DNA of 64,000 nt from Microbacteriaceae bacterium X2B. Lineage in GTDB: Bacteria; Actinomycetota; Actinomycetes; Actinomycetales; Microbacteriaceae. The notes below the pieces were generated by a model. The model was not told the origin of the DNA and did no database searches. It saw nothing but the letters and a program-made list of their open reading frames with translations. The stretch covers positions 124,001 through 188,000 of the forward strand of contig SCPB01000001.1 in assembly GCA_005502445.1 (NCBI GenBank). The letters are read 5' to 3'. Each line of letters starts with the position of its first letter. Positions within the stretch are counted from its first letter, which is position 1. The position numbers were made by a program, and so were the translations under genes. This document shows, piece by piece, positions 6,589-57,180 of the stretch.

Positions 6589-6662
6589 GGTTTCACCTCC
6601 TCCTCGAGACCCGGTGCTCTGAGGCTAGACCGCGCGGCGCCCGAAGTGAACCTTTGACGCGC

Positions 6663-6833
6663 GAAAGTGCGCAATGCGTCGCCCCCACCACGCGCGGAGC
6701 CGCAGTGAACAGGAGGATTGCTTGACGGTGCCTCGGTCTCGAACGAAGTCCCGCGCGAATTCGGCGCAGGAGAGCGCACGGATCACGCACTCCGGTCGCA
6801 TGTTGCGTGAAAGTGCGCAGATTCATGCGCACT
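6663..6833. promoter_or_regulatory. DeoR operator cluster in divergent promoter region
   Basis: GAAAGTGCGCA occurs at 6663-6673 and again at 6809-6819. The second copy forms a perfect inverted repeat, AGTGCGCA (6812-6819) and TGCGCACT (6826-6833), separated by 6 bases. One copy lies near the regulator's own promoter and the palindrome abuts the -35 of the ABC operon, about 145 bp apart, which would allow repression by looping. The rest of 6589-6967 shows no gene. Confidence 0.7.
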
Positions 6834-6838
6834 ATCGC

Positions 6839-6868
6839 TTGACACGGCGCGCACATCCTCGCTAGCGT
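6839..6868 (+). promoter_or_regulatory. Promoter of the ABC-DhaK operon
   Basis: TTGACA at 6839-6844 is a consensus -35. TAGCGT at 6863-6868, after an 18-base spacer, is a plausible -10. The operator palindrome ends 5 bases before the -35. Confidence 0.6.
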
Positions 6869-6967
6869 CCTCCCTCAGCGACACATCCCGACACAGCATG
6901 GTCAGAGATTGCCGCGTCCTGATGACGGCGAAAGCAGTCATTCACTCGTTCACAAAGGAGTAAACGT

Positions 6968-8008: not shown

Positions 8009-8025
8009 AGTCTCGATCAATCCCT

Positions 8026-8062
8026 GCTCCGGGGGCGCGCGCTCGATACGCGCTCCCGGAGC
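8026..8062 (+). terminator. Stem-loop after binding-protein gene (partial terminator)
   Basis: The arms at 8026-8039 and 8049-8062 pair at 13 of 14 positions around a 9-base loop, between the binding-protein and ATPase genes. No U-tract follows, so it more likely stabilises the upstream mRNA or terminates only part of the transcripts, raising binding protein over transporter. Confidence 0.65.
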
Positions 8063-8083
8063 TCCACGTCAGGAAGGCCGACG

Positions 8084-9595: not shown

Positions 9596-9596
9596 C

Positions 9597-10640: not shown

Positions 10641-11803
10641 GCGCGAAGACGACACCCGACCGGCGCGCGACGCCGCCGTCGCCTGCGCAATCGCCGCAGC
10701 GGCCCGCGGCGCGATTCAACGACCGGCTCGAGCAGGCGACGCGCGGCGCGATGGCTCGAGTTGCCGGCAACCGGAAGACCGGGCGCATGGTCGTCGCGTT
10801 CGTGCTCGCGTTCTCGATCTTCGCGATCGCGAACCCGCGCGTGTTCCTCAGCCCGCTGAACATGCAGAACATCGGCGTCGCGGCGCCCGAGATCGGCGTG
10901 ATCGCGATCGCCATGATGCTCGCGATGCTCACCGGGGGGATCGACCTCTCGCTCGTCGCGATCGCCAACCTGTCGGCGATCACGATCGTCTCGCTGTATT
11001 CGGGCATCGCCGCGAGCGATCCGGCGCTCGCCGAGAGCCTCACGATCCCGATCCTGCTCGCCGGCGTCGTGGTCGGCATCGGGTGCGGGGTGCTCAACAG
11101 CGTGCTCGTGAGCGTCGTCGGCATCACGCCCATCCTCGCCACGCTCGGAACCATGCAGATCCTCAACGGCATCGCCGTCGTCACGACCGGCGGGTCGACC
11201 CTCTACGGCGCGCCCGCGGGGCTCTCGGCCTTCGGCCGCACGGCTCTCGGCCCCGTGCCGCTGCTGTTCGTCGTGTTCATCGTGATCGCCGCGCTCGTCG
11301 CCCTCTTCGTGAGCAGGACGCCGCTCGGTCGCAAGATCCAGCTCGAGGGCGCGAACCCGGTCGCGGCGCGGTACTCGGGAATCAGCAGCAGAACCGTGCT
11401 CACGAGCACATACACGATCGGCGGCGCTCTCGCGGGGGTCGCGGGCGTGCTGTTCCTCGCCCGCAACCCGACGGCATCGGCCGACTACGGCGCCTCGTAC
11501 GTGCTGCTCGTGATCGTCATCGCGGTGCTCGGCGGGACCAACCCGAACGGCGGCTTCGCCTCGGTCGCCGGCATCGTGCTGGCCACCCTGACGCTGCAGA
11601 TCGTGTCGAGCGGCTTCACCGCGCTGCGGCTGTCGTCGTACGAATACGCGATCGCCCAGGGGGTCATCCTCATCGCCGTCATGGTGCTCGACTACCTGAT
11701 GGCGAACCGACGATCGAGGCGCTCCCGCGTCGAGCCCGGGCCCCCGCCCACACCACCCGGTCTGGCCGACTCCTCATCCACGACCCTCACCGACAGCCAC
11801 TAG
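10637..11803 (+). CDS. Sugar ABC transporter permease 2 (RbsC type)
   Basis: This 388-residue permease has a hydrophilic, Pro/Arg-rich N-terminal tail of about 45 residues followed by about ten membrane segments. Family motifs are 'MLAMLTGGIDLSLVAIANLS', 'ITPILATLGTMQILNG' and 'VLLVIVIAVLGGTNPNGGF'. The ATG at 10637 overlaps the first permease's stop. The C-terminal tail is Pro/Ser-rich, and its last codons and stop lie within the first copy of an 18-bp tandem duplication. Confidence 0.92.
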   Translation: MSAKTTPDRRATPPSPAQSPQRPAARFNDRLEQATRGAMARVAGNRKTGRMVVAFVLAFSIFAIANPRVFLSPLNMQNIGVAAPEIGVIAIAMMLAMLTGGIDLSLVAIANLSAITIVSLYSGIAASDPALAESLTIPILLAGVVVGIGCGVLNSVLVSVVGITPILATLGTMQILNGIAVVTTGGSTLYGAPAGLSAFGRTALGPVPLLFVVFIVIAALVALFVSRTPLGRKIQLEGANPVAARYSGISSRTVLTSTYTIGGALAGVAGVLFLARNPTASADYGASYVLLVIVIAVLGGTNPNGGFASVAGIVLATLTLQIVSSGFTALRLSSYEYAIAQGVILIAVMVLDYLMANRRSRRSRVEPGPPPTPPGLADSSSTTLTDSH

Positions 11804-11824
11804 AGAACCGACAGCCACTAGAGA
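11789..11824. repeat. 18-bp tandem duplication spanning permease stop
   Basis: The 18-base unit ACCGACAGCCACTAGAGA is present twice in perfect tandem (11789-11806, 11807-11824). The first copy contains the permease stop TAG; the second lies in the leader of the kinase gene and contributes the A/G-rich bases ahead of its ribosome site. Confidence 0.9.
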
Positions 11825-11836
11825 TACGGAGCACTC

Positions 11837-12838
<1,002 letters not shown>

Positions 12839-12844
12839 ACATCG

Positions 12845-13480
12845 ATGAACGGACACGAACTGAGCATCGCGATCCAGAACTGCCTGACCGTCTTCCCCGA
12901 GTACGCCGACGAGCTCGGCGACCTCGACCAGGCCCTCGGCGACGGCGATCTCGGCATCACGGTCTCCCTCGGCGCGCAGGCCGTCATCGACGCACTGCTG
13001 CAGCTGCCTCCGGAGTCGAAGCCGACCGAGGTCGTGCTCGCCTGCGCCAAGGCCTTCGCCAACGCCAACCCCTCGACGATGGCCGCCCTCGTCGCGGGTG
13101 CTCTGCTCGCGGGTTCCCGGGTGTGGGGCGACGCCGAGTCGATCGACTCCGAGATGGTGAACAAGTTCGCGCTCGCGGCGGCCGAGTCGATCAGCCAGCG
13201 GGGCAAGTCGCAGGTCGGCGACAAGACGATCCTCGACGCGATGTTCCCGGCGGCCGAGGCTCTGCGCGAGACGAACTCGGGCGCGGATCGTCTCGACGCG
13301 GCGATCGAGGCCGCCGAACGGGGGGTGATCACGTCGAAGGAGCTCCAGTCCCGACGCGGGCGCGCCTCCTGGCTGCAGGATCGCAGCATCGGTCTGCAGG
13401 ACCCGGGAGCGACCGCGTTCCTGCGGTTCCTGCAGTCGTGGAAGGCCTCGAACACTCCCAGCCGTGCGGCGGTGAGCTGA
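12845..13480 (+). CDS. dhaL: DhaL-type nucleotide-binding kinase subunit
   Basis: This 211-residue, all-helical DhaL protein has nucleotide-metal residues in 'LGDGDLGITVSLG' (about 34-46), then 'GDKTILDAMFPAAEAL' and the C-terminal loop 'GRASWLQDRSIGLQDPGA'. It completes the kinase with the preceding DhaK. In PTS-type systems DhaL holds ADP and is re-phosphorylated by DhaM, while in other systems it uses ATP directly. No dhaM is present in this window, so ATP dependence is the simpler reading. It lies 6 bases after dhaK. Confidence 0.88.
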   Translation: MNGHELSIAIQNCLTVFPEYADELGDLDQALGDGDLGITVSLGAQAVIDALLQLPPESKPTEVVLACAKAFANANPSTMAALVAGALLAGSRVWGDAESIDSEMVNKFALAAAESISQRGKSQVGDKTILDAMFPAAEALRETNSGADRLDAAIEAAERGVITSKELQSRRGRASWLQDRSIGLQDPGATAFLRFLQSWKASNTPSRAAVS

Positions 13481-13481
13481 G

Positions 13482-14372
13482 ATGGCGAGAGTCACGGTCA
13501 TCGGCCTCGGCACGATGGGGCGCGGCATGGCCCGCAACCTGCTCGATGCCGCCCATGACGTCACGGTGTGGAACCGCACAGCCGATCGTGCGACCGACCT
13601 CGTCGGGCGGGGCGCGGCGCAGGCGCCCTCGATCGCCGCCGCGGTGGCCGAGGCGGAGTTCGTGCTCTACTGCCTCTCCGACGACGCTGCCGTGCGAGCG
13701 GTGGTGCTCGGACCCGACGGTCTCGCAGCACTCGTCCCCGACAGCGCGATCGTCGTGGACCTCTCGACGATCAGCCCGCAGGCGAGCGCGGAGGAGCGCG
13801 AGGCCTTCGAGCGTCGCGGCGTCGCGTTCATCGACGCGCCGGTGTTCGGCTCGAAGGGCGAAGCGGAATCCGGCGGACTGTGGGTCGTCGCGGGCGGCGA
13901 GACCGATGTCGTCGAGGTCGCCTGCCCCGTCCTCGACGCGATCAGCAGCTCCGTCCATCACGTGGGCGGACCGGGCGCGGGCGTGCGCATGAAGCTCGTG
14001 GGCAACCTCATCGTCGCCTCGCAGCTGCTCGCGCTCGGCGAGTCGCTCGCACTCGCGCGCAAGGCGGGGCTCGATCTCGACGCGGTGCTCGAGGTGCTGT
14101 CGGTGACCGACTTCCGGTCGCCGATCTTCGACGGCGTCGGAGCCGCCGTGCTCGCGGGCGACTATTCGCCCTCCTTCGCGCTCGCCCTCATGCAGAAGGA
14201 CACGCGACTGATCCGCGCTTTCGCCGCCGAGCTCGACGCGCCCGTCAGGGGCCTCGAGGTCGCCGCGGACTACGTCGACGCCGCGGTCTCGGCGGGCTAC
14301 GGCGCCGAGAACGCTTCGGCGCTCATCAAGGCGATCGCCGCCCGAGCGGAGGTCGACCTGAGCCGGACATAA
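13482..14372 (+). CDS. NAD(P)-dependent beta-hydroxyacid dehydrogenase
   Basis: This 296-residue protein is of the 3-hydroxyisobutyrate dehydrogenase-like family. Its Rossmann motif is 'GLGTMGRGMARNLL', the substrate loop 'DAPVFGSKGEAESGG' and the catalytic lysine lies in 'GAGVRMKLVGNLIVA' (about residue 170). Family members oxidise hydroxy acids, including four-carbon acid sugars such as threonate. Placement one base after dhaL, as the last gene of the operon, suggests it oxidises the imported compound or an intermediate before or after phosphorylation. The actual substrate is not readable. Confidence 0.85.
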   Translation: MARVTVIGLGTMGRGMARNLLDAAHDVTVWNRTADRATDLVGRGAAQAPSIAAAVAEAEFVLYCLSDDAAVRAVVLGPDGLAALVPDSAIVVDLSTISPQASAEEREAFERRGVAFIDAPVFGSKGEAESGGLWVVAGGETDVVEVACPVLDAISSSVHHVGGPGAGVRMKLVGNLIVASQLLALGESLALARKAGLDLDAVLEVLSVTDFRSPIFDGVGAAVLAGDYSPSFALALMQKDTRLIRAFAAELDAPVRGLEVAADYVDAAVSAGYGAENASALIKAIAARAEVDLSRT

Positions 14373-38856: not shown

Positions 38857-39687
38857 TCACCCGCGCGGAACCACGATCTCGACGTCATTGGCGTGCAGGG
38901 CCGAGGCGAGCTCGTCCGGCGGCTCGGCGTCGGTTACGAAGTAGTCGGCCTGGCCGATCTCGGCGACCTGGGCGAAGAGCCGCCGCCCGAACTTCGACGA
39001 GTCGGCGAGGATCGCGACCTTGCTCGCGCGAGCGATCATCTCGCTCATCATCGTCGCGTCGCCGAGGTTGCTCGTCGAGTACCCGCTGTGCGCCTCGACA
39101 GCTCCGACGGCGATGAGCGCGAGGTCGCATCGGATGTCGACGTCCCCTCCCGTCGGCGAGACGCGGATGCTCACGGGACCGGTCGTCGCCTGCGTGATCG
39201 AGCGCACCGAGCCCCCGAAGACGTAGAGATCGCGGAACGCCTTCGGAGAGATCTCGGACGGGAGCAGCAGGTTGTTCGTCGCGATCGTCAGGTCGCGATG
39301 GTGGCGCAGGTGCCGGGCGACCGAGAGCGTCGTCGTGCCGGCATTGATCATGATCACCGAGTTGTCGTCGACGAGCTCGGCCGCGAGAGCGCCGATGGTC
39401 TCCTTCTCAGCGGCCTGCAGTCGCAACCGCACGTCGAGCCCGCGATCGGTTCGCGAGACCGTCGCCAGGCTCACGGCGCCGCCGTGCGTGCGCACGAGCA
39501 CCCCCTCGGTATGCAGCTGGTCGAGGTCTCGGCGCACGGTGTCGATCGAGACCCCGAAGCGCTCGGCGAGCAGCCCGACTGTCACCTGGCCGATCTCGGC
39601 CACGTACGCCGCGAGTTCCGCCTTGCGGCCGGCGGGAAGGCGGCGGGGCTGATCGTCGTCCGGATCGGAGTGAGAGCGCGAGGCCAT
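38857..39687 (-). CDS. DeoR-family repressor of the aldolase-kinase operon
   Basis: This 276-residue DeoR regulator has HTH 'LLAERFGVSIDTVRRDLDQL' (about residues 36-56), 'LVRTHGGAVSL', then the sensor signatures 'IMINAGTTTLSVARHLRHH', 'TIATNNLLLP', 'YVFGGSVRS' and 'ILADSSKFGRRLF'. ATG 39687 begins a short Ser/Asp-rich lead; the longer upstream frame crosses the promoter region and is not used. It is divergent from the ABC-aldolase-ADP-kinase-ManA operon, and palindromes in the 248-bp intergenic region are its likely sites. Confidence 0.9.
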   Translation of the reverse strand: MASRSHSDPDDDQPRRLPAGRKAELAAYVAEIGQVTVGLLAERFGVSIDTVRRDLDQLHTEGVLVRTHGGAVSLATVSRTDRGLDVRLRLQAAEKETIGALAAELVDDNSVIMINAGTTTLSVARHLRHHRDLTIATNNLLLPSEISPKAFRDLYVFGGSVRSITQATTGPVSIRVSPTGGDVDIRCDLALIAVGAVEAHSGYSTSNLGDATMMSEMIARASKVAILADSSKFGRRLFAQVAEIGQADYFVTDAEPPDELASALHANDVEIVVPRG

Positions 39688-39737
39688 ACAGGAACTACTA
39701 GCACAATCTGCGCCTCTCTGCGGTGAGAACGAGCGCG

Positions 39738-39751
39738 CATTGGCGCCAATG
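39738..39751. promoter_or_regulatory. 14-bp perfect palindrome near DeoR start
   Basis: CATTGGCGCCAATG reads the same on both strands, about 50 bases before the regulator's ATG on the minus strand, where it could mediate autoregulation. Confidence 0.55.
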
Positions 39752-39880
39752 AGCCATAAAAGAGCAGAGAACAGCAATCCGTTTGGCCACTCTGGCGCAC
39801 TCAATGTGGGCATTCGGGCACTTTTGCTGCAGGATGCGGTGCTTGCATGTGCCGTCTTATGCGAGTATTGTCGCAGTTGC

Positions 39881-39910
39881 TTGCACAAGAGCGCATAGAT
39901 GCGCTAATAA
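39881..39910 (+). promoter_or_regulatory. Promoter with operator in the spacer
   Basis: TTGCAC (39881-39886) and TAATAA (39905-39910) are -35 and -10 elements with an 18-base spacer. The spacer contains GCGCAT-AG-ATGCGC (39891-39904), a perfect 6-bp inverted repeat. A repressor bound there would block RNA polymerase directly. Confidence 0.72.
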
Positions 39911-39935
39911 CTGCAGTTTCAGACGAAGGAGAATC

Positions 39936-41228
39936 ATGAGCAAGGACGCTCAGGGCAGTCGAACCGCGCTGACAGTGATCGGCGCGACCGCGATCGCCGC
40001 AACAGTGCTCGTCGCCTCGGGGTGCGCAGCGCCCGGCGACCCCGGCTCGAGCGACGGCGACGTCGTTCTCGAGCTCGCGCAGTGGTGGGAGCCTGAGCTC
40101 CCGGACGGCGCCTTCCGCGAACTCATCGACGAGTTCGAAGCCGAGAACCCCGGCATCACCGTCGAACTGCTGAGCGGGCCGTATGCCTCGACCAAGGAGC
40201 AGCTGTTCGCGGGAGCCGCCGCGGGCACGATGTCCGACGTCGTCGGTCTCGACGGCGCATGGGTCAGCGATTTCAAGGATCAGGGCGCTCTCGCCGACCT
40301 CAGCGCGCTCATGGCCGAGGCGGACTACGACGAGAGCCAACTCGCCAGTCAGATCCAGCTCGACGGCGCGACCTACATGATCCCGGTCGTCAACTTCGTG
40401 TATCCGATGTTCACCAACGACGACCTCCTCGCCGAGGCCGGCGTCGACGCTCCGCCGAGCACTCGATCGGAGTTCGCGGCCGCCGCTGCGGCCCTGACCG
40501 AGCTGGGCGGCAACACGAGCGGCTGGATCCTCCCGCTCTCGCTCGAGGCGCCCAACGGCATCCAGAACGACGTCATGTCGTGGGTCTGGGCCTCGGGCGG
40601 GTCGATGCTCGCCGACGGCCAGCCCGACCTCACCAACGACGAGGTCACGAGCGCCGTCGAGTACATCAAGGGCCTGTGGGACGACGGCGTCATCGCCCCC
40701 GGGGCATTCACGATGAAGGAGCAGGACAAGGTCGAGGAGTTCACCAACGGCCGCGTCGGCATGATGATCTCCAGCCTCGCGCACATCAACCTCATCCGCG
40801 AGTCGAACCCCGAACTCAGCTTCAGCATCTCGGCGCTGCCCGCCGAAGACGGATTCGACGGCGAGCGGGGCATCCCCTACGCATCATGGGGCATCGGCGT
40901 CTCGGAGTCGTCGGAGAACAAGGCCGAGGCCTGGAAGCTCGTCGAGTTCCTCATGAGCGAGGACGTCAACTCGCGGCTGTCGTCGATCGCCAACGCGTTC
41001 CCGGGCAACACCGCCTCGGTGCCCGACTTCGTCGAGGGCGACGAGCTCTTCGCGACGGCGTTCGACATCTACCAGAGCGGCTACCCGGCGAACGAGTTCA
41101 CAGGGCTTCCGGTCGCCGAGCAGCTCATGCGGTTGTTCGACGAGCAGTTCCAGCGCATGCTCGAGGGCGACCAGTCGGTCGACGAGATGCTGTCGACGAC
41201 CCAGGAAGCGTGGATGAACGAGTTCTAA
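39936..41228 (+). CDS. Sugar ABC transporter substrate-binding lipoprotein (CUT1 type)
   Basis: This 430-residue lipoprotein has lipobox 'LVASGC' (Cys30) and the solute-binding family 1 fold. 'LELAQWWEPELPDGAFRELI', 'FEAENPGITVELLSGPYAST', 'DVVGLDGAWVSDF' and 'FTNGRVGMMISSLAHINLIR' are typical of maltose/oligosaccharide-type binding proteins, and 'GIPYASWGIGVSESSENKAE' is the hinge-side motif. AAGGAG precedes the ATG. No ATPase gene is present in the operon, so it would rely on a shared MsiK-like ATPase, as is common in actinobacteria. Confidence 0.9.
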   Translation: MSKDAQGSRTALTVIGATAIAATVLVASGCAAPGDPGSSDGDVVLELAQWWEPELPDGAFRELIDEFEAENPGITVELLSGPYASTKEQLFAGAAAGTMSDVVGLDGAWVSDFKDQGALADLSALMAEADYDESQLASQIQLDGATYMIPVVNFVYPMFTNDDLLAEAGVDAPPSTRSEFAAAAAALTELGGNTSGWILPLSLEAPNGIQNDVMSWVWASGGSMLADGQPDLTNDEVTSAVEYIKGLWDDGVIAPGAFTMKEQDKVEEFTNGRVGMMISSLAHINLIRESNPELSFSISALPAEDGFDGERGIPYASWGIGVSESSENKAEAWKLVEFLMSEDVNSRLSSIANAFPGNTASVPDFVEGDELFATAFDIYQSGYPANEFTGLPVAEQLMRLFDEQFQRMLEGDQSVDEMLSTTQEAWMNEF

Positions 41229-41247
41229 CCCGTTCGACCCCGTCAGC

Positions 41248-41290
41248 GAGGGTCGTGCCGCCTCATCGCCTCACCGGCGGCACGACCCTC
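41248..41290 (+). terminator. 15-bp stem-loop after binding-protein gene
   Basis: GAGGGTCGTGCCGCC (41248-41262) pairs perfectly with GGCGGCACGACCCTC (41276-41290) around a 13-base loop, 19 bases after the binding-protein stop. No U-tract follows, so partial termination or mRNA stabilisation fits best. Confidence 0.75.
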
Positions 41291-41317
41291 TCGTCATCCC
41301 TGGAAGGCGCCCCACCC

Positions 41318-42280
41318 ATGACCGCTCTCTTCGATCGCGACACGCGCTCGGGAATCGGCCCCGACCCGGCGGGCCGGCCGGCGCTCCAGCGCCGAGCCGC
41401 GCTGAGCCGGACCTACCGCCGCAGCGAGCCGTACCGCTTCATCCTGCCGACGGCGGTGCTGCTGTTCGTGCTCATGGTGATCCCGATCATCATGGTCATC
41501 GGCTACTCGGTGATGGACAACGTCATCACCAACCGCAGCCCCGAATTCGTCGGCCTCGCCAACTACGTCGCGGTCCTCGGCGACCGGATCTTCCACACCG
41601 CGGTCGGCAACACGCTGATCTTCACGATCGTGAGCGTCGTCGCCCACCTCGTGCTCGGGCTCGTCTTCGCGCTGCTGCTCAACACGACCCTCATCAGTCG
41701 CGCGGGCATCGCGATCTTCCGGGTCATCTACATCCTGCCGTGGCTCTTCACCGTCGCGATCATCGCCGTGCTGTGGCGCCTGCTGCTCAACCCCAACGGC
41801 GTCGTCAACTACCTGCTGCAGAGCGCCGGCGCCGTGGAATCGGGCGTCGAGTGGCTCTCATCGCCCGATCTCGCGCTCGCCGCCGTGACCTTCATCAACA
41901 TCTGGGCGGGATACCCCTTCTTCATGATCAGCATGCTCGCGGGGCTCCAGGGCATCCCCCGCGACCTGTATGAGGCGGCGACCGTCGACGGGGCGTCGCC
42001 GTGGCAGCGCTTCACGAACGTCACCCTGCCGCAGCTGACGCCGATCATCATCAGCATGACGCTGCTCGATCTGATCTGGACCTCGCAGCAGTTCGCCCTG
42101 ATCTGGATGACCACCGGCGGCGGGCCCATCAACGTCACCGAGATGCTCAGCACCTTCACCTACAAGCTCGCCTTCAGCCGCTACGAATTCGCGCAGGCGT
42201 CGACGAGCGCCGTGATCATCCTGCTGCTGTCGATGGTGCTCGCGTTCTTCTACGTGCGGCACCAGAAGGCGAGGGACTGA
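41318..42280 (+). CDS. Sugar ABC transporter permease (MalF type)
   Basis: This 320-residue permease has a basic cytoplasmic N-terminus and six membrane segments, beginning 'FILPTAVLLFVLMVIPIIMV'. The EAA loop that contacts the ATPase is 'DLYEAATVDGASPWQRFTNV'. The end 'TYKLAFSRYEFAQASTSAVI' is typical of MalF-type CUT1 permeases. ATG 41318 follows TGGAAGG at a distance of 14 bases. It is separated by one base from the second permease. Confidence 0.92.
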   Translation: MTALFDRDTRSGIGPDPAGRPALQRRAALSRTYRRSEPYRFILPTAVLLFVLMVIPIIMVIGYSVMDNVITNRSPEFVGLANYVAVLGDRIFHTAVGNTLIFTIVSVVAHLVLGLVFALLLNTTLISRAGIAIFRVIYILPWLFTVAIIAVLWRLLLNPNGVVNYLLQSAGAVESGVEWLSSPDLALAAVTFINIWAGYPFFMISMLAGLQGIPRDLYEAATVDGASPWQRFTNVTLPQLTPIIISMTLLDLIWTSQQFALIWMTTGGGPINVTEMLSTFTYKLAFSRYEFAQASTSAVIILLLSMVLAFFYVRHQKARD

Positions 42281-42281
42281 C

Positions 42282-43130
42282 ATGCTCGCACTCGACCGTC
42301 GGCGCGTGCGCGCCCTCATGCGAATCGGCGTCGTGCTCGCCCTGCTGGCCGGCGCCGGATTCGCCGGACTGCCGATTCTGTGGATGCTCGCCAGCTCGTT
42401 CAAGTCGAACACCGAGATCTTCGAGTACCCGCCCCGGCTGCTCACCGATAGCTTCTCGTTCGATGCCTACCTCGCGATCCTCAGCGACCCCGTGAAGGTG
42501 CGCTTCTTCATCAACAGCTACGTCGTCTCTCTCGCGGTCACCGTGCTGACGCTCATCGTGGCGATCCTCGCGGCCTACGCCTTCAGCCGATTCGATTTCC
42601 GCTTCAAGAAGCCGCTCAACATGATCATCGTGAGCGTGCAGGCCGTGCCGCCGATCACACTGCTCATCCCGTACTTCGGGCTCGTCGTGACGCTCGGTCT
42701 GTACAACACCTACCCCGGGCTGATCCTCACCTACATGGTCTTCACGCTTCCCTACGCGATCATCATGATGACGGGCTACTTCAACACGCTGCCGCGCGAG
42801 CTCGATGAAGCGGTGCGGGTCGACGGGGCCGGATCGATGACCGCGCTGTGGCGCGTGCTCGTGCCCATCTCGATCCCCGGCATCGTCTCGGTCGGCGTCT
42901 ACACCTTCATGATCGCCTGGAACGAGTACCTGTTCGCGCTGACGCTCACGCGCACAGACGACATGCGCACGGTGCCCATCGGCATCCAACTGCTCATGGG
43001 GCAGCACTCGTACGAGTGGAACGAGATGATGGCGATGAGCATCCTCGGTTCGATCCCGGTGCTCATCCTCTTCCTCTTCTTCCAGAAGTACTTCATCGGC
43101 GGACTCACCGCAGGCTCGGTCAAGAGCTGA
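42282..43130 (+). CDS. Sugar ABC transporter permease (MalG type)
   Basis: This 282-residue permease has six membrane segments, 'LPILWMLASSFKSNTEIFEY' near its N-terminus and the EAA loop 'LDEAVRVDGAGSMTALWRVL'. It ends with 'FLFFQKYFIGGLTAGSVK', the standard MalG C-terminus. It forms the channel with the preceding MalF-type protein. Confidence 0.93.
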   Translation: MLALDRRRVRALMRIGVVLALLAGAGFAGLPILWMLASSFKSNTEIFEYPPRLLTDSFSFDAYLAILSDPVKVRFFINSYVVSLAVTVLTLIVAILAAYAFSRFDFRFKKPLNMIIVSVQAVPPITLLIPYFGLVVTLGLYNTYPGLILTYMVFTLPYAIIMMTGYFNTLPRELDEAVRVDGAGSMTALWRVLVPISIPGIVSVGVYTFMIAWNEYLFALTLTRTDDMRTVPIGIQLLMGQHSYEWNEMMAMSILGSIPVLILFLFFQKYFIGGLTAGSVKS

Positions 43131-43189
43131 GACTCCGCCATGTCATCGACCATCCACCCCACACCCACTGCATCGAGGAGAGACCAGCT

Positions 43190-44050
43190 GTGCTGATCAA
43201 CGGAAAAGACCTGCTCGCCGTCGCCAACGAGAACGACTTCGCCGTACCGGCGTTCAACATCAGCGACTGGGCGATGTACACCGGCATCGTCGAGATCTGC
43301 GAAGAGACGGGGTCGCCCCTCATCGCCGCGATCCACCCCGACGAGCTGAGCCACATCGGGGTCGACCTGCTGCCATCGATCATCCAGAAGGCCCACCGGT
43401 CGTCGGTGCCTATCGCGGTGCACCTCGATCACGGCGCGAACCACCACCAGGTGCTCACGGCCATCCAGGCCGGGTTCACGTCGGTCATGATCGACGGTTC
43501 GATGCTCCCGTTCGACGAGAACGTCGAGCTGACCGCGCACGTCGTCGAGCTCGCGCACGCCGTCGGCCTCTCGGTCGAGGGCGAGCTCGGCACGATCGGC
43601 AAGCTCGACGAGGAGGCCGAGAGCGGCGCGTCGGTGATCGTCTACACCGATCCCGACGATGCCGTGCGCTTCGTCGAGCAGACCGGCGTCGACAGCCTGG
43701 CGGTCGCGATCGGCACCTCGCACGGCCTCTATCCCGCCGGCATGAAGCCCGAGCTCAAACTCGATCTGCTCGAGCGCATCAAGGCGGTCGTCGGCCTCCC
43801 GCTGGTGCTCCACGGCGGATCGGGGAACCCGGACGACGAGATCGGCCGCTCGGTGAAGCTCGGCATCAACAAGATCAACATCTCGAGCGACATCAAGGCC
43901 GCCTATCACGGCCGGATGCGCGAGGTGCTCGCCGATCGATCGCTCCGCGAACCGAACACGATCCAGCCGCCGTCGCTCGCCGCCATGAAGGTCACGGCGG
44001 CTCAGAAGATCGCGCTCTTCGACGCCGCCGGCAAGGCAGAGTTGTACTGA
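43190..44050 (+). CDS. Class II ketose-bisphosphate aldolase
   Basis: This 286-residue aldolase has zinc and active-site motifs in the expected order: 'VHLDHGANHHQVLTAI' (His ligands), 'SVMIDGSMLPFDENV', 'SVEGELGTIG', 'AIGTSHGLYP' (His) and 'PLVLHGGSGNPDDEI' (His). The length and 'NKINISSDIKAAYH' agree with the tagatose/fructose-bisphosphate aldolase (GatY/KbaY/FbaA) branch. It would split a ketose 1,6-bisphosphate into DHAP and an aldehyde. GTG 43190 follows GAGGAGAG. Placed directly before the ADP-dependent kinase, it fits a dedicated lower pathway for the imported sugar. Confidence 0.9.
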   Translation: MLINGKDLLAVANENDFAVPAFNISDWAMYTGIVEICEETGSPLIAAIHPDELSHIGVDLLPSIIQKAHRSSVPIAVHLDHGANHHQVLTAIQAGFTSVMIDGSMLPFDENVELTAHVVELAHAVGLSVEGELGTIGKLDEEAESGASVIVYTDPDDAVRFVEQTGVDSLAVAIGTSHGLYPAGMKPELKLDLLERIKAVVGLPLVLHGGSGNPDDEIGRSVKLGINKINISSDIKAAYHGRMREVLADRSLREPNTIQPPSLAAMKVTAAQKIALFDAAGKAELY

Positions 44051-44070
44051 GCGGCAGGAGAGGGGCGGGC

Positions 44071-45318
44071 ATGGCCGACAGCGCGTCGATCGTCCTCGGT
44101 CTCGGGGGCACGGTCGACTACGAGATCGCCTGGGACTCCGTCGTGCTCGAGGCGATGATCCTCGAGCACGGCGTGGCCACCGCCGAACTCGACCGGGCGA
44201 TCCCGGTCGACTCCGAGCGCGATCTGCTCGTGACGCTGCTCGCCTTCCTCCGCGACGGGGTGGGCGGCGAACGATTCGTGGCGACGACCGCGATCATCGA
44301 GAGCTTCGCGCAGCGGTTCCGCACGAGGGTGACCCTCGGCGGCACGTGCGTGCGCGCGACCATCGCCATGAGAGCGCTCGGCGTCACGAGCACCGTGCAT
44401 CTCGTGAGCATCGACGACACCGTGCGCCGACTGCTGCCGGCCGGGTGCTCGTATCTCTGCAGCGCCAGCAGCGACTCGACCGATCCGCACCTGATCGTGC
44501 AGTTCGCGGCGGGAGCGCGCATCGTCGCCGGCGACATCGACATCGTGGCGCCCCACGCCAACCGGATCATCTACACGAACGACCCGCCCAATCGAGAACT
44601 GGTGCTCAGCCGCGACCTGGGACGAGCGTTCGAGCACGCCGAGATCATCATGATCTCGGGGTTCAACGTGATCCAGGAGGCCGAGGTGCTCGACGCGCGG
44701 CTCGACGAGCTGCTCGAACATCTGGCCTCGCGTCGCGAGCGCTCGGTCGTGTTCTTCGAGGACGCCGGCTACCATCGCCCGATCCTCCGCGACCGGGTGC
44801 GCGAGAAGCTCGTCGACGCCGTCGATGTCTGGAGCATGAACGAGGACGAGCTGCAGGCCTACGTGGATCACCGCGTCGATCTGCTCGACCCCGACGCCGT
44901 GATCGAGGCCCTCATCGAGCTGCGGCGCCTGATTCCCGCGCGAGTGCTCGTCGTGCACACCAAGTACTGGTCGCTCGCGGCGGGCGACGCGGCGTCGGAT
45001 TGGGAGCGGGCGCTGCGCGGCGGCATCACGATGGCGACGACCCGGTACCGGTGCGGTGACGGCTTCACCGAATTCGACTACCGCGAGACCGGTCGGCTCG
45101 CCGTGCATCGCGGCGGAGCCCTGGCGGCCCGGCGCCTGGAACGACTCGCGCCGATGCCCCTGCGATGCATCCCGGCCTTCGTCGTCGACACCGGGGCGCC
45201 GACGACGATCGGGCTCGGAGACGCCTTCGTCGGCGGCTTCATCGCCGCCCTCGCGCGCGAGGGCGGCGGGTCCGACGCGATCGCCGAGAGCGCCGAGATC
45301 GTCGGTTCGCCGTGCTGA
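44071..45318 (+). CDS. ADP-dependent sugar kinase (ADPGK/ADP-PFK family)
   Basis: This 415-residue protein matches the ADP-dependent glucokinase/phosphofructokinase family of the ribokinase fold. Evidence is the sugar-site segment 'TLGGTCVRATIAMRALG', 'MISGFNVIQEAEVL', the 'NEDEL' motif (N-E-x-E/D) in 'VWSMNEDELQAYV', 'VVHTKYWSLAAG' and the catalytic 'GLGDAFVGGF' near the C-terminus. Archaeal and mammalian relatives phosphorylate glucose or fructose-6-phosphate with ADP. A bacterial member inside an ABC sugar operon, beside an aldolase and a mannose-6-phosphate isomerase, suggests phosphofructokinase-type activity; substrate and ADP use are inferred. Confidence 0.78.
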   Translation: MADSASIVLGLGGTVDYEIAWDSVVLEAMILEHGVATAELDRAIPVDSERDLLVTLLAFLRDGVGGERFVATTAIIESFAQRFRTRVTLGGTCVRATIAMRALGVTSTVHLVSIDDTVRRLLPAGCSYLCSASSDSTDPHLIVQFAAGARIVAGDIDIVAPHANRIIYTNDPPNRELVLSRDLGRAFEHAEIIMISGFNVIQEAEVLDARLDELLEHLASRRERSVVFFEDAGYHRPILRDRVREKLVDAVDVWSMNEDELQAYVDHRVDLLDPDAVIEALIELRRLIPARVLVVHTKYWSLAAGDAASDWERALRGGITMATTRYRCGDGFTEFDYRETGRLAVHRGGALAARRLERLAPMPLRCIPAFVVDTGAPTTIGLGDAFVGGFIAALAREGGGSDAIAESAEIVGSPC

Positions 45319-46301
45319 GCGTCGTCGTACTCCCCTCCAACCGGCCGGCCGACCGCTTCTACCGCGGCGGCCGACGCATCACCGACTTCCGCGGCGAACC
45401 GCCGGCGGGGCCGCACGAGCCCGAGGACTGGGTCGCGTCGACGACGACGGTGGCGGGGGAGCGCGCGGTGGGGCTCAGCACGCTGCCCGACGGCCGACTG
45501 CTCGCCGAGGCGATCGCGAGCGACCCCGAGGGCTGGCTGGGCGACGAGCACGTGCGCCACTACGGAGCCGACACACGACTGCTCGTGAAGCTGCTCGACG
45601 CTGGCCAGCGGCTGCCCGTCCACGCGCATCCCGACGCCGCGTTCGCCGCGCACCATCTCGGCCGCGCCCACGGCAAGGCCGAGGCGTGGTGCATCCTCCG
45701 CGGGGGAATTGTCCACCTCGGGCTCCGGCGCGATGTGGCGCGATTCGAACTGATCGGGCTCGTCGAGCGCCAAGACGTCGAGTCCCTCCTGGGGCTGCTG
45801 CATCCGATCGCGGTCGATGCGGGCGATGTCGTATTCGTGCCTCCCGGCATGCTGCACGCCATCGACGAGGGGGTCTTCATGGTCGAGCTCCAGGAGCCGG
45901 AGGATCTGTCGATCCTGCTCGAGTGGCGCGGCTTCGCCATCGACGGCAGGGTCGACGGGCACCTCGGTCTCGGATTCGATCTCGCCCTGGACGCGGTCGA
46001 GACGCGCGGCCGCTCGATCGCCGAGATCCGATCCCTCGTGATCGCGCCGGACTCGCGGCGCGCGAACCTGCCTCCCGAAGCGGGGTCGTACTTCCGACTC
46101 GAGCGCCATGTCGTCGACGGAGAGCTCGAGCTCGATGCCGGATTCTGCGTGCTCGTGGTCATCGCGGGGCAGGTGTGTGCCGGCGAGGTACCCTCGATCG
46201 AGCTGCCGCTCGGCAGCACGGCAGTCGTGCCGTTCGCCGCGGGAAGTGTCTGCATCGCTGGTTGCGGCGAACTCCTGGTCTGCCGGCCGCCGTCGCCCTG
46301 A
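45312..46301 (+). CDS. manA: Class I mannose-6-phosphate isomerase-like protein
   Basis: This 329-residue cupin-type isomerase has its zinc site in 'LPVHAHPDAAFAAHHLGRAH' (the usual Q of 'QVHPD' is His here), 'GKAEAWCILRGG' and 'FVPPGMLHAID'. The C-terminal half is the second cupin. Typical ManA enzymes interconvert mannose-6-P and fructose-6-P. GTG 45312 overlaps the kinase stop by 7 bases, so translation is coupled. The Q-to-H change at a metal ligand position suggests altered substrate, possibly a free sugar or a different phosphate. Confidence 0.8.
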   Translation: MLSVVVLPSNRPADRFYRGGRRITDFRGEPPAGPHEPEDWVASTTTVAGERAVGLSTLPDGRLLAEAIASDPEGWLGDEHVRHYGADTRLLVKLLDAGQRLPVHAHPDAAFAAHHLGRAHGKAEAWCILRGGIVHLGLRRDVARFELIGLVERQDVESLLGLLHPIAVDAGDVVFVPPGMLHAIDEGVFMVELQEPEDLSILLEWRGFAIDGRVDGHLGLGFDLALDAVETRGRSIAEIRSLVIAPDSRRANLPPEAGSYFRLERHVVDGELELDAGFCVLVVIAGQVCAGEVPSIELPLGSTAVVPFAAGSVCIAGCGELLVCRPPSP

Positions 46302-53953: not shown

Positions 53954-55420
53954 ATGACGACGACGTCAGCCCCTCCGGCTCGCAGCGCGCGCGTGCACGT
54001 GCAGCGATTCGGCACCTTCCTGAGCGGCATGATCATGCCCAACATCGCGGCCTTCATCGCGTGGGGCTTCATCACGGCGTTCTTCATCGAGACCGGCTGG
54101 ACGCCCAACGAGACGCTCGCGGCGCTCGTCGGTCCGATGATCATCTACTTGCTGCCGTTGCTCATCGCCAACATGGGCGGCCGCATGGTCTACGACACCC
54201 GTGGTGGTGTCGTGGCGACGATCGCCACGATGGGCGTGATCGTCGGCACCGACATCCCGATGTTCATCGGCGCGATGATCGTCGGGCCGCTCGCGGCGTG
54301 GATCATCAAGCAGGTCGACAAGCTGTGGGCGGGCAAGATCCGCGCCGGCTTCGAGATGCTCGTCGACAACTTCTCGGCCGGCATCGTCGGCGCCGTGCTC
54401 GCGGTGCTCGCCTTCCTCGGCATCGCCCCGGTCGTGACCGCGCTGAGCGGCGCCCTCGGTTCGGGCGTCGACTTCCTCATCGCCACGGGACTCCTGCCGC
54501 TCGCGAGCATCCTCATCGAGCCGGCGAAGATCCTCTTCCTCAACAACGCCATCAACCACGGCGTGCTCACCCCGCTCGGCATCGAGCAGGCCGCTGAGCA
54601 GGGCAAGTCGATCCTGTTCCTGCTCGAGGCGAACCCCGGCCCCGGCCTGGGAATCCTCGTCGCCTTCGCGGTGTTCGGCATCGGCATCGCGCGCGCCTCG
54701 GCCCCCGGTGCGATCATCATCCACTTCCTCGGCGGCATCCACGAGATCTACTTCCCGTACGTGCTCATGAAGCCGGCGCTCGTGCTCGCCGTCATCGGCG
54801 GCGGCGCCACGGGTGTCGCGACGAACCTCCTCTTCGGCTCGGGGCTGCGCGCGCCGGCCTCGCCCGGATCGATCTTCGCCGTGCTGCTGCAGACGGCGAG
54901 CGACAGCTACATCGGCGTGATCCTCTCGGTCGTGCTCTCGGCGACGGTGTCGTTCCTCATCGCCGCGGTCATCCTGCGGGCGAGCCGCAAGAAGGACCTC
55001 GCCGCGCACGAGGCGCAGGGCGACCGCTTCGGCGGCGCTCTCGCGAAGAACGTCGAGAACAAGGGACGCGACTCGCAGGTCGCCGGCCTGCTCGGCCAGG
55101 AGGCCGCCGTCGCCGGCACCGCGACCGCGACGCGCGTCGAGAACATCGTGTTCGCGTGCGACGCCGGCATGGGCTCGAGCGCGATGGGTGCGACGATCCT
55201 TCGCAAGAAGCTCAAGGACGCCGGGGTCGAGAACGTGACCGTCACCAACAAGTCGATCGCGAACCTCACCGACGAGGCCGACCTGGTCATCACGCACCAG
55301 GACCTCACCGCTCGCGCGCACCAGCAGGCGCCGCACGCGCAGCACGTCTCGGTCGAGAACTTCATGGCGAGCAGCAAGTACGACGACGTCGTCGCTCTCG
55401 TGAAGTCGCAGCAGGGCTAG
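53954..55420 (+). CDS. mtlA: Mannitol PTS transporter EIICB
   Basis: This 488-residue protein has a IIC membrane domain (to about residue 345) with 'FLSGMIMPNIAAFIAWGFIT', 'GGRMVYDTRGGVVATIATMG', the sugar motif region 'EPAKILFLNNAINHGVLTPL' (GIx-E-type) and 'HFLGGIHEIYFPYVLMKP'. A linker leads to the IIB domain with Cys in 'IVFACDAGMGSSAMGATILR'. It imports mannitol as mannitol-1-phosphate. AAGGAGCGACACCC precedes the ATG. Confidence 0.95.
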   Translation: MTTTSAPPARSARVHVQRFGTFLSGMIMPNIAAFIAWGFITAFFIETGWTPNETLAALVGPMIIYLLPLLIANMGGRMVYDTRGGVVATIATMGVIVGTDIPMFIGAMIVGPLAAWIIKQVDKLWAGKIRAGFEMLVDNFSAGIVGAVLAVLAFLGIAPVVTALSGALGSGVDFLIATGLLPLASILIEPAKILFLNNAINHGVLTPLGIEQAAEQGKSILFLLEANPGPGLGILVAFAVFGIGIARASAPGAIIIHFLGGIHEIYFPYVLMKPALVLAVIGGGATGVATNLLFGSGLRAPASPGSIFAVLLQTASDSYIGVILSVVLSATVSFLIAAVILRASRKKDLAAHEAQGDRFGGALAKNVENKGRDSQVAGLLGQEAAVAGTATATRVENIVFACDAGMGSSAMGATILRKKLKDAGVENVTVTNKSIANLTDEADLVITHQDLTARAHQQAPHAQHVSVENFMASSKYDDVVALVKSQQG

Positions 55421-55436
55421 TCTCTCTGCCGCACCC

Positions 55437-55470
55437 GGGGGCGGTCGTGTCCGCACGAGCGACCGCCCCC
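55437..55470 (+). terminator. 11-bp stem-loop after mtlA
   Basis: GGGGGCGGTCG (55437-55447) pairs perfectly with CGACCGCCCCC (55460-55470). It lies 17 bases after the mtlA stop and before mtlF, and would reduce but not abolish readthrough. Confidence 0.7.
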
Positions 55471-55564
55471 GCCATCCGCCCACGGCGATGCCGCGACGCC
55501 CGCGCCTCGCCGACGCTCAGGGCCGACGCCCAGGGCCGACATCCAGGAAGGACAGGCGTCTGAC

Positions 55565-56014
55565 ATGACCGCCTCCGTGCTGACCACCGACCGCATCATC
55601 CTCGACGGCGCCGCGCGCACGCGCGACGAGGCGATCGCCGAGGGCGCGCGCCTGCTCGAGGCCGCCGGGGCCGTGACCGCCGACTACCACCCGGCGATGC
55701 TCGAGCGCGAGGCGCTCACCTCGACCTACATGGGCAACCATCTCGCCATCCCGCACGGCACGAACGATGCGAAGGGTGCGATCCTCTCCTCCGCGATGAC
55801 CGTCGTCCGCTACGCCGAGCCGATCGACTGGAACGGCAACCCCGTGCGCGTCGTCGCCGCGATCGCCGGCAAGGACGGCGAGCACATGAGCGTGCTCTCG
55901 GCCCTCGCCCTCGTGTTCAGCGACGAGGCCGCCGTCGAGAAGCTGCTCGCAGCCCCCGACGCCGAGACCGTTCTCGCGATGCTCGGCGACGTCAACGACG
56001 CCGTCTCGGCCTAG
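55565..56014 (+). CDS. mtlF: Mannitol PTS EIIA
   Basis: This 149-residue EIIA domain of the mannitol/fructose type has active His in '[20 protein letters not shown]' (about residues 57-76), then '[20 protein letters not shown]' and '[20 protein letters not shown]'. It receives phosphate from HPr and passes it to the IIB domain of MtlA. ATG 55565 follows AGGAAGGACAGG. It lies 8 bases before mtlD. Confidence 0.94.
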
Positions 56015-56022
56015 GCGACGTC

Positions 56023-57180
56023 ATGACCGCCGTCCACTTCGGCGCCGGAAACATCGGCCGCGGCTTCATCGGCCTCCTGCTGCACGAGGCCGGCCACGAG
56101 CTCGTGTTCGTCGACGTCAACGCCCCGCTCATCGCCGCGATCGCGGCCGCCGATTCGTATCGTGTGATCGAGATCGGGGGCGAGGAGAGCATCCGCACCG
56201 TCACGGGGTTCTCCGCGATCGATTCCTCCGCCGATCAGGATGCCGCTATCGCGGCGGTCGCGTCGGCCGACATCGTCACGACCGCCGTCGGCCCCACCAT
56301 CCTGCGCTTCATCGCGCCCGTCATCGCTGCGGGGCTGCGGGCGCGGGGCCCCGATCGCGCCCGGCTGCCCGTCATGGCGTGCGAGAACGCGCTCGGAGCG
56401 ACCGACCTGCTGCGCGGGCACATCGCCGAGCTGCTCGCCGACGACCCGGGCGTGCTCGATCGCGCGGTGTTCGCGAACACCGCCGTCGACCGCATCGTGC
56501 CGATCCAGGAGCCCGAGGCGGGCCGTGAGCTGGATGTCCGGGTCGAGCCGTTCAGCGAGTGGGCGATCGAGGCGGGCCCCTTCGAGGGCGCGCCGCCGGT
56601 CATTCCGGGCGCCCACTTCGTCGACGACCTCGCCCCGTACATCGAGCGCAAGCTCTTCACCGTCAACACCGGCCACGCCTCGGCCGCCTACCTCGGATTC
56701 GTCGCCGGAGCCGCGACGATCGACGAGGCGGTCGGCATGCCCGCCGTGCGCGCCGGAGTCGAGGCGGCGCTGCTCGAGACCTCGCGGCTGCTCGTCGCGC
56801 GCCACGGCTTCGACCCCGCGGTGCAGGACGCCTACCGCGCGACCGCGCTGTCGCGCTTCGCCAACCCCGCGCTGCACGACGGCGTCGACCGCGTCGGTCG
56901 GCAGCCGCTGCGCAAGCTCTCGCGCCGCGAGCGGCTCATCGAGCCGGCGGCGGCGCTCGCCGAGGCGGGCGTCGAGCCGGTCGGGCTGCTCGCGGTCATC
57001 GCGGCGGCGCTGCGGTTCCGCGTCGCGGACGACCCGGAGAGCGTCGAACTGCAGGCGCGGCTCGCGGCGGGCGGTTCGGCAGGGGAGCTCGTGACGTCGG
57101 TCATGGGCGTCGAGCCCGGGCACGCGCTGTTCGCGGCGCTCGAGCGCGTCGTCGCCGAGGCGCAGGCTGCGGCGGGCTGA
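56023..57180 (+). CDS. mtlD: Mannitol-1-phosphate 5-dehydrogenase
   Basis: This 385-residue protein has the NAD motif '[18 protein letters not shown]' at residues 3-20, '[18 protein letters not shown]', the catalytic Lys/His segment '[20 protein letters not shown]' and '[19 protein letters not shown]'. It oxidises mannitol-1-phosphate to fructose-6-phosphate with NAD, completing the pathway. It is the last gene of the mtl operon. Confidence 0.95.

Follow-up and report, generated by a model that had tools for sequence, protein, structure and literature searches.

The window analysed here is a 64,000-nt stretch of the genome of Microbacteriaceae bacterium X2B (GCA_005502445.1, contig SCPB01000001.1, forward-strand positions 124,001-188,000). 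Profile and ORF checks recovered all seven genes that an initial annotation had placed at 38857-46301, with starts corrected (Table 1), and bore out its description of a single catabolic operon comprising an importer, an isomerase, a PF04587 kinase, and an aldolase.

Table 1 Features of the sugar operon and its regulator in the X2B window
Feature	Position	Strand	Evidence
DeoR/GlpR-type regulator, divergent from operon	38857..39687	-	PF00455 2.6e-37; PF08220 1.8e-16
Divergent control region, candidate promoter and operator	39688..39935	.	between divergent genes
Extracellular sugar-binding protein (SBP_bac_1)	39936..41228	+	PF01547 2.1e-37
Permease 1, MalF-type ABC permease	41318..42280	+	PF00528 4.6e-16
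Permease 2, MalG-type ABC permease	42282..43130	+	PF00528 1.4e-18
Class II (zinc) aldolase, proposed ketose-1-phosphate aldolase	43190..44050	+	GTG start; PF01116 3.7e-88
ADP-dependent-sugar-kinase-family kinase, proposed ketose (C1) kinase	44071..45318	+	PF04587 7.6e-26
ManA-like cupin isomerase, proposed free-aldose/ketose isomerase	45312..46301	+	GTG start; model and metal-site residues

The isomerase start (45312) overlaps the kinase stop (45318), and no ATPase gene for the ABC importer lies within the operon. The binding protein is 82.6% identical to a protein of Agromyces sp. Soil535. Naming the sugar from solved sugar-binding proteins was abandoned, as the best match—the acarbose/maltose-binding GacH (E 5.6e-20)—was too remote.

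Conservation of the gene set

Genomes were searched at one per species, all from the window's own phylum. Positives numbered 18 of 199 in the family sample, 35 of 396 in the order sample, 10 of 394 in the class sample, and, by the PF04587 profile, 1 of 396 in the phylum sample. Two of the order positives (G714 and G875), weak or partial, were left unfetched, and the PF04587 profile also matched two archaea among 14 control genomes. From 69 fetched loci, three duplicates (L094, L120, L123) were dropped. In all 66 remaining loci (64 genomes), the kinase adjoins a PF01116 aldolase, excluding a chance neighbourhood; as the loci were collected through the kinase, such counts describe the neighbours of the kinase and not how often aldolase or importer occur without it. 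The aldolase was of the operon type in 64 of the 66, the other two having a paralogous pair only. Binding protein and both permeases were likewise found in 64 loci, with the remaining two cut by contig ends. Importer, aldolase, and kinase are thus the constant core of the gene set. The isomerase, by comparison, is linked in only 32 loci and missing from the neighbourhood in 34, so that the initial picture of a self-contained set including the isomerase is not supported; Dak-type triose kinase genes follow the operon in four.

The DeoR gene is divergent in 60 of the 66 relatives, lies upstream on the same strand in four, and is missing from the two loci that a contig end truncates. Words such as AAACAGCA/TGCTGTTT were common to 19 of 61 divergent control regions, as against 7 for the best word in a single shuffled control set. 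The intergenic stretch is probably the promoter and candidate operator region, where the DeoR protein would probably act as a repressor relieved by the sugar or by a phosphorylated intermediate.

Clustering the flanking ORFs of 29 loci yielded few families common between loci, and a tblastn search of 72,556 plasmid records returned no match. Inspection of the flanks (12 sequences by eye, 10 nearby genes by Pfam) gave no clue to the sugar beyond the tandem kinase and SDR gene of one locus (L028).

Fold and pocket of the kinase

ADP-dependent sugar kinases are known mainly from archaea and animals. The operon kinase scored 91.2 bits against PF04587 (cut-off 27), and its structural model (pLDDT 86) matched 17 ADP-family entries at Z 28-36. 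The two-domain ADP-kinase fold is covered over its full length (5o0j: Z 36.0, rmsd 3.3, 388 residues aligned). Bacterial members of the family had already been reported in PMC7948494.

Kinase residues were compared over 63 rows, leaving out two pieces of one kinase (L032); bootstrap support in the kinase tree had not settled. In common with the archaeal and mouse ADP-glucokinases and ADP-phosphofructokinases, the operon kinase has GxGD (G381, G383, D384), the NxxE glutamate (E260), the HxE glutamate (Glu230), and the NRxI arginine (R165), each in 63/63 rows, as well as the NxxE asparagine (N257) in 61. It differs from them in standing beside an aldolase in a bacterial operon, in lacking the HxE histidine (0/63 at position 228), and in carrying glycine for the sugar-side Asn32 in 58 of 63 rows, changes that make its pocket unlike that of any member compared. 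Arg165 corresponds to R206, a residue in contact with the beta-phosphate of ADP and without which activity dropped about 600,000-fold (PMC7948494). Family, modelled fold, and this invariant arginine together point to ADP as the likely phosphate donor. That the pathway proposed below is right but its kinase now takes phosphate from ATP, PPi, or some other donor is a real possibility, if on balance a doubtful one: identity to solved ADP kinases is only 16-21% and two pocket residues have changed, but the fold is much nearer to ADP kinases than to the remaining kinases of the ribokinase superfamily (Z at most 23), and the arginine, both glutamates, and GxGD are invariant.

Even with ADP as donor, the suggestion that the operon could spare ATP falls away. 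An ADP donor leaves AMP, and since adenylate kinase consumes an ATP in recycling that AMP, the ATP balance does not improve.

On the sugar side, the residues that bind the phosphate of fructose 6-phosphate in ADP-phosphofructokinases (Lys179, Asn181, Arg212) are replaced. Asp138 and His140 align with K179 and N181 (5od2 row), and Asp171 with R212 (AncMT and mouse rows, residue list of PMC7948494); His140 and Asp171 are invariant, and lysine never occurs at 138. A second alignment for the arginine (KIN2) was too distant (24-25% identity) and left unused. According to PMC7948494, phosphofructokinases and bifunctional enzymes alone retain K179, N181, and R212, TlGK has histidine in place of N181, and E90—beside which we set Glu67, present in 63/63 rows—is kept only in glucokinases and bifunctional enzymes. 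Judged by these residues, the kinase has a glucokinase-type hinge and is without the fructose 6-phosphate contacts in every row.

Active sites of aldolase and isomerase

The aldolase comparison omitted three of the 66 sequences, pieces shorter than 200 aa, and, besides the 62 operon aldolases, its 63 rows include an unlinked PF01116 gene from L117, which is the outlier of the table. The zinc ligands and catalytic aspartate (H81, H178, H208, D80) are kept in all 63 rows, and these four, with Ser211 and Asn230, are invariant among the operon aldolases. Arg331 of FbaA (DPR motif) and Ser61, which we take to serve the second phosphate, are Asn256 and His49 in the window's aldolase; across the operon aldolases, arginine occurs at the first position in 0/62 (N in 53, D in 6, L in 2, M in 1) and histidine at the second in 62/62. 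FbaA Ser267 and Asn286 presumably serve the phosphate of dihydroxyacetone phosphate (DHAP), and we take Ser211 and Asn230 to be this DHAP side. Arg331 is kept in KbaY and falls in a gap in YdjI. Glu182 of FbaA is aspartate in 60 of 63 rows. Asp288, necessary for cleavage by FbaA according to PMC5434028, is serine in 62/62 operon aldolases, alanine in KbaY, and histidine in YdjI; Glu175 of that paper is our 174, and seven other residue numbers agree. The changes at the phosphate sites of kinase and aldolase suggest that a singly phosphorylated sugar is split, rather than ordinary glycolysis repeated.

They also bear on the initial view of the operon as a lower glycolysis, in which a ketose-6-phosphate kinase would feed an ordinary fructose- or tagatose-bisphosphate aldolase. 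Family names speak for this view, as do the solved ADP-phosphofructokinases among the structural matches of the kinase and the fructose- and tagatose-bisphosphate aldolases within PF01116. Yet the phosphofructokinase-type Lys, Asn, and Arg are missing from the kinase and the Arg331 equivalent from every operon aldolase; 63 of 66 loci have a single kinase gene, leaving no second kinase to make the first phosphate; and the host genome has its own PF00365 phosphofructokinase and two other PF01116 class II aldolases. We therefore consider a private lower glycolysis improbable, and the host's own genes likewise rule out a replacement for missing glycolytic enzymes. For the paralogous type-B aldolase, which keeps the arginine in 5/5 sequences, the bisphosphate reading may hold.

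The isomerase had no Pfam match and scored 46.9 bits against the NCBI manA equivalog TIGR00218, below the cut-off of 116.2. Its model (pLDDT 89) nonetheless fits ManA closely (1zx5 Z 32.9, 1qwr Z 31.8; Z 29-33 to type I mannose-6-phosphate isomerases), and Lys86, His99, Lys132, Glu134, His255, Glu264, and Asp270 of ManA are kept. The metal site reads His-x-His, Glu, His in place of ManA's Gln-x-His, the other three ligands being retained; the reported exchange of the metal-site glutamine was correct, with histidine at position 104, aligned with E. coli ManA Gln97, in 32/32 linked relatives. Histidine is not unique within the fold, as A. fulgidus 1zx5 also has it, and B. subtilis ManA (1qwr) has lysine. 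A further difference is at ManA Arg274, here Leu202 and Leu, Met, or Ile in 32/32 linked isomerases; literature searches found no paper on the role of this arginine.

Relatives of the isomerase outside the operon (12 of 15 such genes were fetched) occur in two settings: in L138 and L145 their neighbours are an FGGY kinase and a LacD-type aldolase, and in L134, L136, and L143 a PfkB kinase and a DeoC/LacD aldolase, kinase and isomerase sharing one frame in L134. Of 56 genomes with the PF04587 kinase, 37 had such an isomerase gene, as against 2 of 24 genomes lacking the kinase. The kinase-negative genomes were all of one family, within which the counts were 11/19 and 2/24. When linked isomerases were discounted, the figures became 9/28 and 2/24 (p 0.046). 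Dak1 was not commoner in kinase-positive genomes (50/56 vs 20/24, p 0.48). One locus (L027) adds a triosephosphate isomerase gene to the Dak gene after the operon, with a run of 10 N between the ManA-like isomerase and the Dak gene.

In two loci (L113, L117), the gene order is kinase, DUF4432, isomerase, DhaK, DhaL, DhaM-type. DhaKLM is presumably a dihydroxyacetone kinase, as classically described, which fits a route through 6-phosphates: the kinase would phosphorylate C6 of the free aldose, the ManA-like protein would form the ketose 6-phosphate, the aldolase would release dihydroxyacetone and glyceraldehyde 3-phosphate, and DhaKLM would act on the dihydroxyacetone. The glucokinase-type hinge (residues of PMC7948494) and the ManA fold agree with this route, and FbaA can join dihydroxyacetone and glyceraldehyde 3-phosphate to fructose 6-phosphate in vitro (PMC5434028). 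The residue changes run the other way. The route would need the reverse of what the aldolase shows, namely a retained DHAP side, as we read it, and no equivalents of Arg331 and Ser61; ManA Arg274 is replaced throughout; and relatives of the isomerase stand beside FGGY kinases. The substrates of known FGGY kinases carry no phosphate; known PF04587 glucokinases, the model for such a C6 kinase, phosphorylate C6 and not C1. We regard the 6-phosphate route as unlikely, though less so than a lower glycolysis.

A candidate ketose-1-phosphate pathway

Our preferred reading, for which belief and doubt are about evenly balanced, is that the operon is devoted to the catabolism of one external sugar, following ketohexokinase-type (ketose-1-phosphate) logic with unusual parts. 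Speaking for it are the constant linkage of kinase, aldolase, and importer, the phosphate-site residues of kinase and aldolase, the kinases and aldolases beside relatives of the isomerase, the higher share of isomerase genes in kinase-positive genomes, and the Dak genes after the operon. Against it stand the altered Asp288 and Glu182 positions of the aldolase, the unusual pocket of the kinase, the C6 specificity of known PF04587 glucokinases, the classical role of DhaKLM, the even spread of Dak1, the origin of all kinase-negative genomes in one family, and the 34 loci with no linked isomerase. The ABC importer, recognisable by its gene types, would take up the unphosphorylated sugar, and the cupin isomerase, where present, would convert the free aldose to the ketose. 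The PF04587 kinase would then add a phosphate to the free ketose, C1 being the most likely position and ADP the probable donor. The class II aldolase, judging by its active site, may cleave the ketose 1-phosphate to yield DHAP plus an aldehyde without phosphate, for instance glyceraldehyde. The triose would be phosphorylated by a kinase of the DhaK/DhaL type, which is linked to the operon in four of the 66 loci and encoded elsewhere in the host genome. Tentatively, and with rather more doubt than confidence, we extend this reading to an ADP-driven ketose 1-kinase recruited in Actinomycetota, feeding a class II ketose-1-phosphate aldolase, and to a modular set in which one cupin isomerase joins three unrelated pairs of enzymes: a PF04587 kinase with a class II aldolase, and a PfkB or an FGGY kinase each with a class I aldolase.

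Known pathways resemble the operon in part. Vertebrate fructolysis (ketohexokinase, aldolase B, triokinase) also proceeds by C1 phosphorylation to DHAP and glyceraldehyde, with a Dak-family triose kinase. The likeness is one of logic alone, as the present kinase and aldolase are non-orthologous and belong to a bacterial operon. E. coli ydjH-ydjI, annotated as octuluronate kinase and octuluronate-1-phosphate aldolase, likewise pairs a sugar kinase with a PF01116-type aldolase, and YdjI, annotated as a ketose-1-phosphate aldolase, shares with the operon enzyme the lack of an Arg331 equivalent. However, YdjH is, we assume, a PfkB kinase, the transporters differ, and homology between the aldolases, though clear, is not close (6ofu, E 2.4e-46). 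Sulfo-EMP2 (SqvD, SqiK, SqiA) breaks down sulfoquinovose with an isomerase, a kinase, and a PF01116 aldolase via a ketose 1-phosphate, according to PMC9594981. It shares the aldolase family with the operon but uses a PF02952 isomerase and a PF00365 kinase instead of a cupin ManA-like isomerase and a PF04587 kinase. A sulfoquinovose pathway was rejected on these family differences; nor is a sulfolactaldehyde enzyme among the operon genes. As the initial annotation had supposed, no description of this set as a pathway was found in the open-licence papers searched.

If the proposal is true, ADP-dependent sugar kinases would have a dedicated catabolic role in bacteria and a substrate class beyond the three of PMC7948494 (glucose, fructose 6-phosphate, or both), and the short list of ketose-1-phosphate pathways would gain one more route. 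With so constant a gene set, the substrate can be tested for directly, and through the shared isomerase several sugar operons of uncharacterised function become approachable together. In these bacteria, the family-derived name 'ADP-dependent phosphofructokinase/glucokinase' may mislead as to substrate.

Operon layout and occurrence

The operon comprises six genes, for a binding protein, two permeases, a class II aldolase, a PF04587 kinase and a ManA-like isomerase, and is faced by the gene of a DeoR-type regulator. The genome measures 2.57 Mb, and the window is part of its contig C19. The permease genes are separated by 1 base and the aldolase and kinase genes by 20, and the isomerase start overlaps the kinase stop. 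A profile search of the operon genes returned neither an ATPase nor a glycosidase gene.

Comparison with related Actinomycetota yielded 66 further loci, all distinct, across 64 genomes (13 taken from genome contigs plus sets of 16 and 40 regions, minus 3 duplicates). In all 66, each located via its kinase, the kinase adjoins a PF01116 aldolase; binding protein and both permeases lie upstream in 64, the remaining two loci ending at contig ends. The window-type kinase stands alone in 61 loci, is joined by a paralogue in three and is replaced by it in two. An isomerase is linked in 32 of the 66, 28 times downstream of the kinase (in one frame with it, no stop intervening, in L027, L033 and L121) and four times beyond the regulator. 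On the kinase tree, whose bootstrap had not settled, starred branches alone call for a minimum of 7 switches in this linkage (13 over all branches), so the linkage has been both gained and lost.

Occurrence is patchy (18/199 genomes of the family, 35/396 of the order, 10/394 of the class and, by PF04587 profile, 1/396 in a phylum-level sample), named kinase-bearing relatives including Cryobacterium, Agromyces and Microbacterium. The operon is absent from the three other same-genus genomes within the 199-genome family sample, and GC at 40–44 kb is 0.64–0.67, below most of the window; both would fit acquisition by transfer.

ADP-dependent kinases have already been reported in bacteria (PMC7948494), and ADP-using PFKs have been described from cyanobacteria, in the unrelated PFK-A family (PMC11609450). 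Reviews place ADP-dependent sugar kinases in archaea (PMC12203962) or in archaea and animals (PMC12696579), with no mention of use in such an operon in the passages available from either. A sulfoquinovose cluster (PMC8873060) is likewise actinobacterial but different. The initial annotation knew of no description of this gene set, and full-text searches of open-licence papers listed none, as judged from titles and abstract starts.

Genes and loci discussed, with coordinates in the window or in the locus named
Sequence	Coordinates	Feature
Window	5839–14372	Second sugar operon: DeoR regulator, Peripla_BP_4 binding protein, ABC ATPase, BPD_transp_2 permease, DhaK (Dak1), DhaL (Dak2), 3-hydroxyisobutyrate-dehydrogenase-like protein; possibly a tetrulose or triose route
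Window	11837–12838	Dak1 gene
Window	38857–46301	DeoR-type regulator and facing six-gene operon
Window	39688–39935	Divergent control region
Window	45312–46301	ManA-like isomerase
Window	53954–57180	PTS permease (EIIC-EIIB), EIIA-like protein (by eye), mannitol-dehydrogenase-family protein; probably a mannitol system
L027		Dak1-Dak2, then triosephosphate isomerase, after operon; 10-N gap ahead of Dak gene
L110		DhaK, DhaL after operon
L113, L117		DUF4432 gene, isomerase, DhaK, DhaL, EIIA-HPr protein of DhaM type
L126, L127		Type B operon (paralogous): DeoR, binding protein, two permeases, aldolase B, kinase 2, SDR
L028, L100, L114		Combined operon: both aldolases, both kinases
L134	7007–9199	PfkB kinase and ManA-like isomerase in one frame, adjoining DeoC/LacD aldolase
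L135		DeoC/LacD aldolase as in L134; GH38 and GH2-type glycosidase genes nearby
L032 (MAG)	9648–10710	Kinase match split in two; perhaps frameshift, deletion or assembly error
L095	7250–8109	Aldolase match split in two; perhaps frameshift, deletion or assembly error

Active-site residues of the kinase and aldolase

In a structure search, the kinase model (mean pLDDT 86) scored Z 28–36 against 17 entries for ADP-dependent kinases, ahead of the best other ribokinase-superfamily kinase (Z 23). We compared it with an ancestral ADP-PFK carrying bound F6P, whose sugar-binding residues include E90, K179, N181 and R212 and whose R206 meets the ADP beta-phosphate (PMC7948494). All 63 aligned kinases have Glu at E90 and His at N181, position 179 is never Lys, and 212 is Asp; as aligned, the sugar site shows a glucokinase-type pattern. 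The R206 equivalent, R165 in the window kinase, is invariant across the 63 rows. Loss of the HxE His in 63/63 and Gly for Asn32 in 58/63 speak against full membership of the ADP-dependent kinase family. Together, these residues predict an enzyme that should act on unphosphorylated sugar in a remodelled pocket, probably with ADP as donor.

Aldolase numbering was anchored to E. coli FbaA and agrees with seven residues named in PMC5434028, with Glu175 shifted by one position. No operon aldolase departs from the catalytic Asp, the three zinc-site His, Ser211 or Asn230. The DPR arginine Arg331, which we take to be the C6-phosphate ligand, is replaced by Asn in the window and by Asn, Asp, Leu or Met across 62 operon aldolases; none of the 62 keeps Ser61, which is His throughout. 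The window enzyme also carries Glu182 to Asp and Asp288 to Ser, the latter position differing as well in KbaY, which has Ala, and in YdjI, which has His. Unlike the operon aldolases, the bisphosphate aldolase KbaY has the DPR arginine. It is missing, as in the operon enzymes, from YdjI, which carries a ketose-1-phosphate aldolase annotation. Of the individual arguments for a putative monophosphate substrate, this residue pattern is the strongest. A Dak-family kinase follows the operon in four loci (L027, L110, L113 and L117). The main alternative, a 6-phosphate route releasing dihydroxyacetone, is favoured by DhaKLM, the set found in L113 and L117, but the aldolase residues argue against it.

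The isomerase and its gene neighbours

The isomerase model (pLDDT 89) adopts the ManA fold, matching 1zx5 at Z 32.9, and seven of nine ManA residues compared are retained. A His in place of the metal-site Gln, as initially annotated, is borne out by the alignment, which puts it at Gln97. The other change, Arg274 to Leu, affects what we take to be an active-site residue, which appears in the title of a mutant structure; the position is Leu, Met or Ile in 32/32 linked isomerases.

A search of 80 genomes (≥40% identity) returned isomerase genes in 37/56 kinase-positive versus 2/24 kinase-negative genomes (Fisher p 1.4e-6), the latter all from one family, within which the comparison is 11/19 versus 2/24; with linked copies excluded, it is 9/28 versus 2/24 (p 0.046). 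Regions were fetched for 12 of 15 isomerase genes outside the operon, and six of these place a different sugar kinase, together with a DeoC/LacD aldolase, near the isomerase: an FGGY kinase with LacD-type aldolases 97% identical to each other (L138, L145), a PfkB kinase (L134, L136, L143), or a sugar kinase assigned by reading beside a tested aldolase (L135). L137 has an FGGY kinase and a class II aldolase 3 to 8 kb away; reading of the fetched regions of L139–L142 and L144 found no kinase-aldolase pair near the isomerase. One isomerase type thus accompanies several kinase-aldolase pairs, FGGY kinases among them, and this supports a free sugar as its substrate.

Variant operons and a proposed route

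In L113 and L117, the DUF4432 gene lies between kinase and isomerase and is a candidate mutarotase of the pathway; its presumed similarity to galactose mutarotases would suit a pathway in which the isomerase is fed by a reducing aldose. The type B genes (L126, L127, L028, L100, L114) combine a diverged kinase 2, which forms a single clade (support 100/100 in the kinase tree, bootstrap not settled), with an aldolase retaining the DPR arginine (5/5) and an SDR replacing the isomerase; their substrate class probably differs from that of the window type. Words such as AAACAGCA/TGCTGTTT and CGCAGAAA/TTTCTGCG recur among the divergent control regions of the window and 60 relatives, possibly a DeoR operator.

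From the gene types, linkage and residues observed, we infer the substrates, phosphorylation position, phosphate donor and direction of regulation. A free sugar would be taken up, isomerised to a ketose where needed and phosphorylated at C1 by the PF04587 kinase; the ketose-1-phosphate would be cleaved to DHAP and an aldehyde, which a triose kinase would phosphorylate, the genome having two Dak1 genes, one of them inside the window. The compact catabolic operon is real and belongs with the isomerase-kinase-aldolase systems, its kinase being the unusual member.
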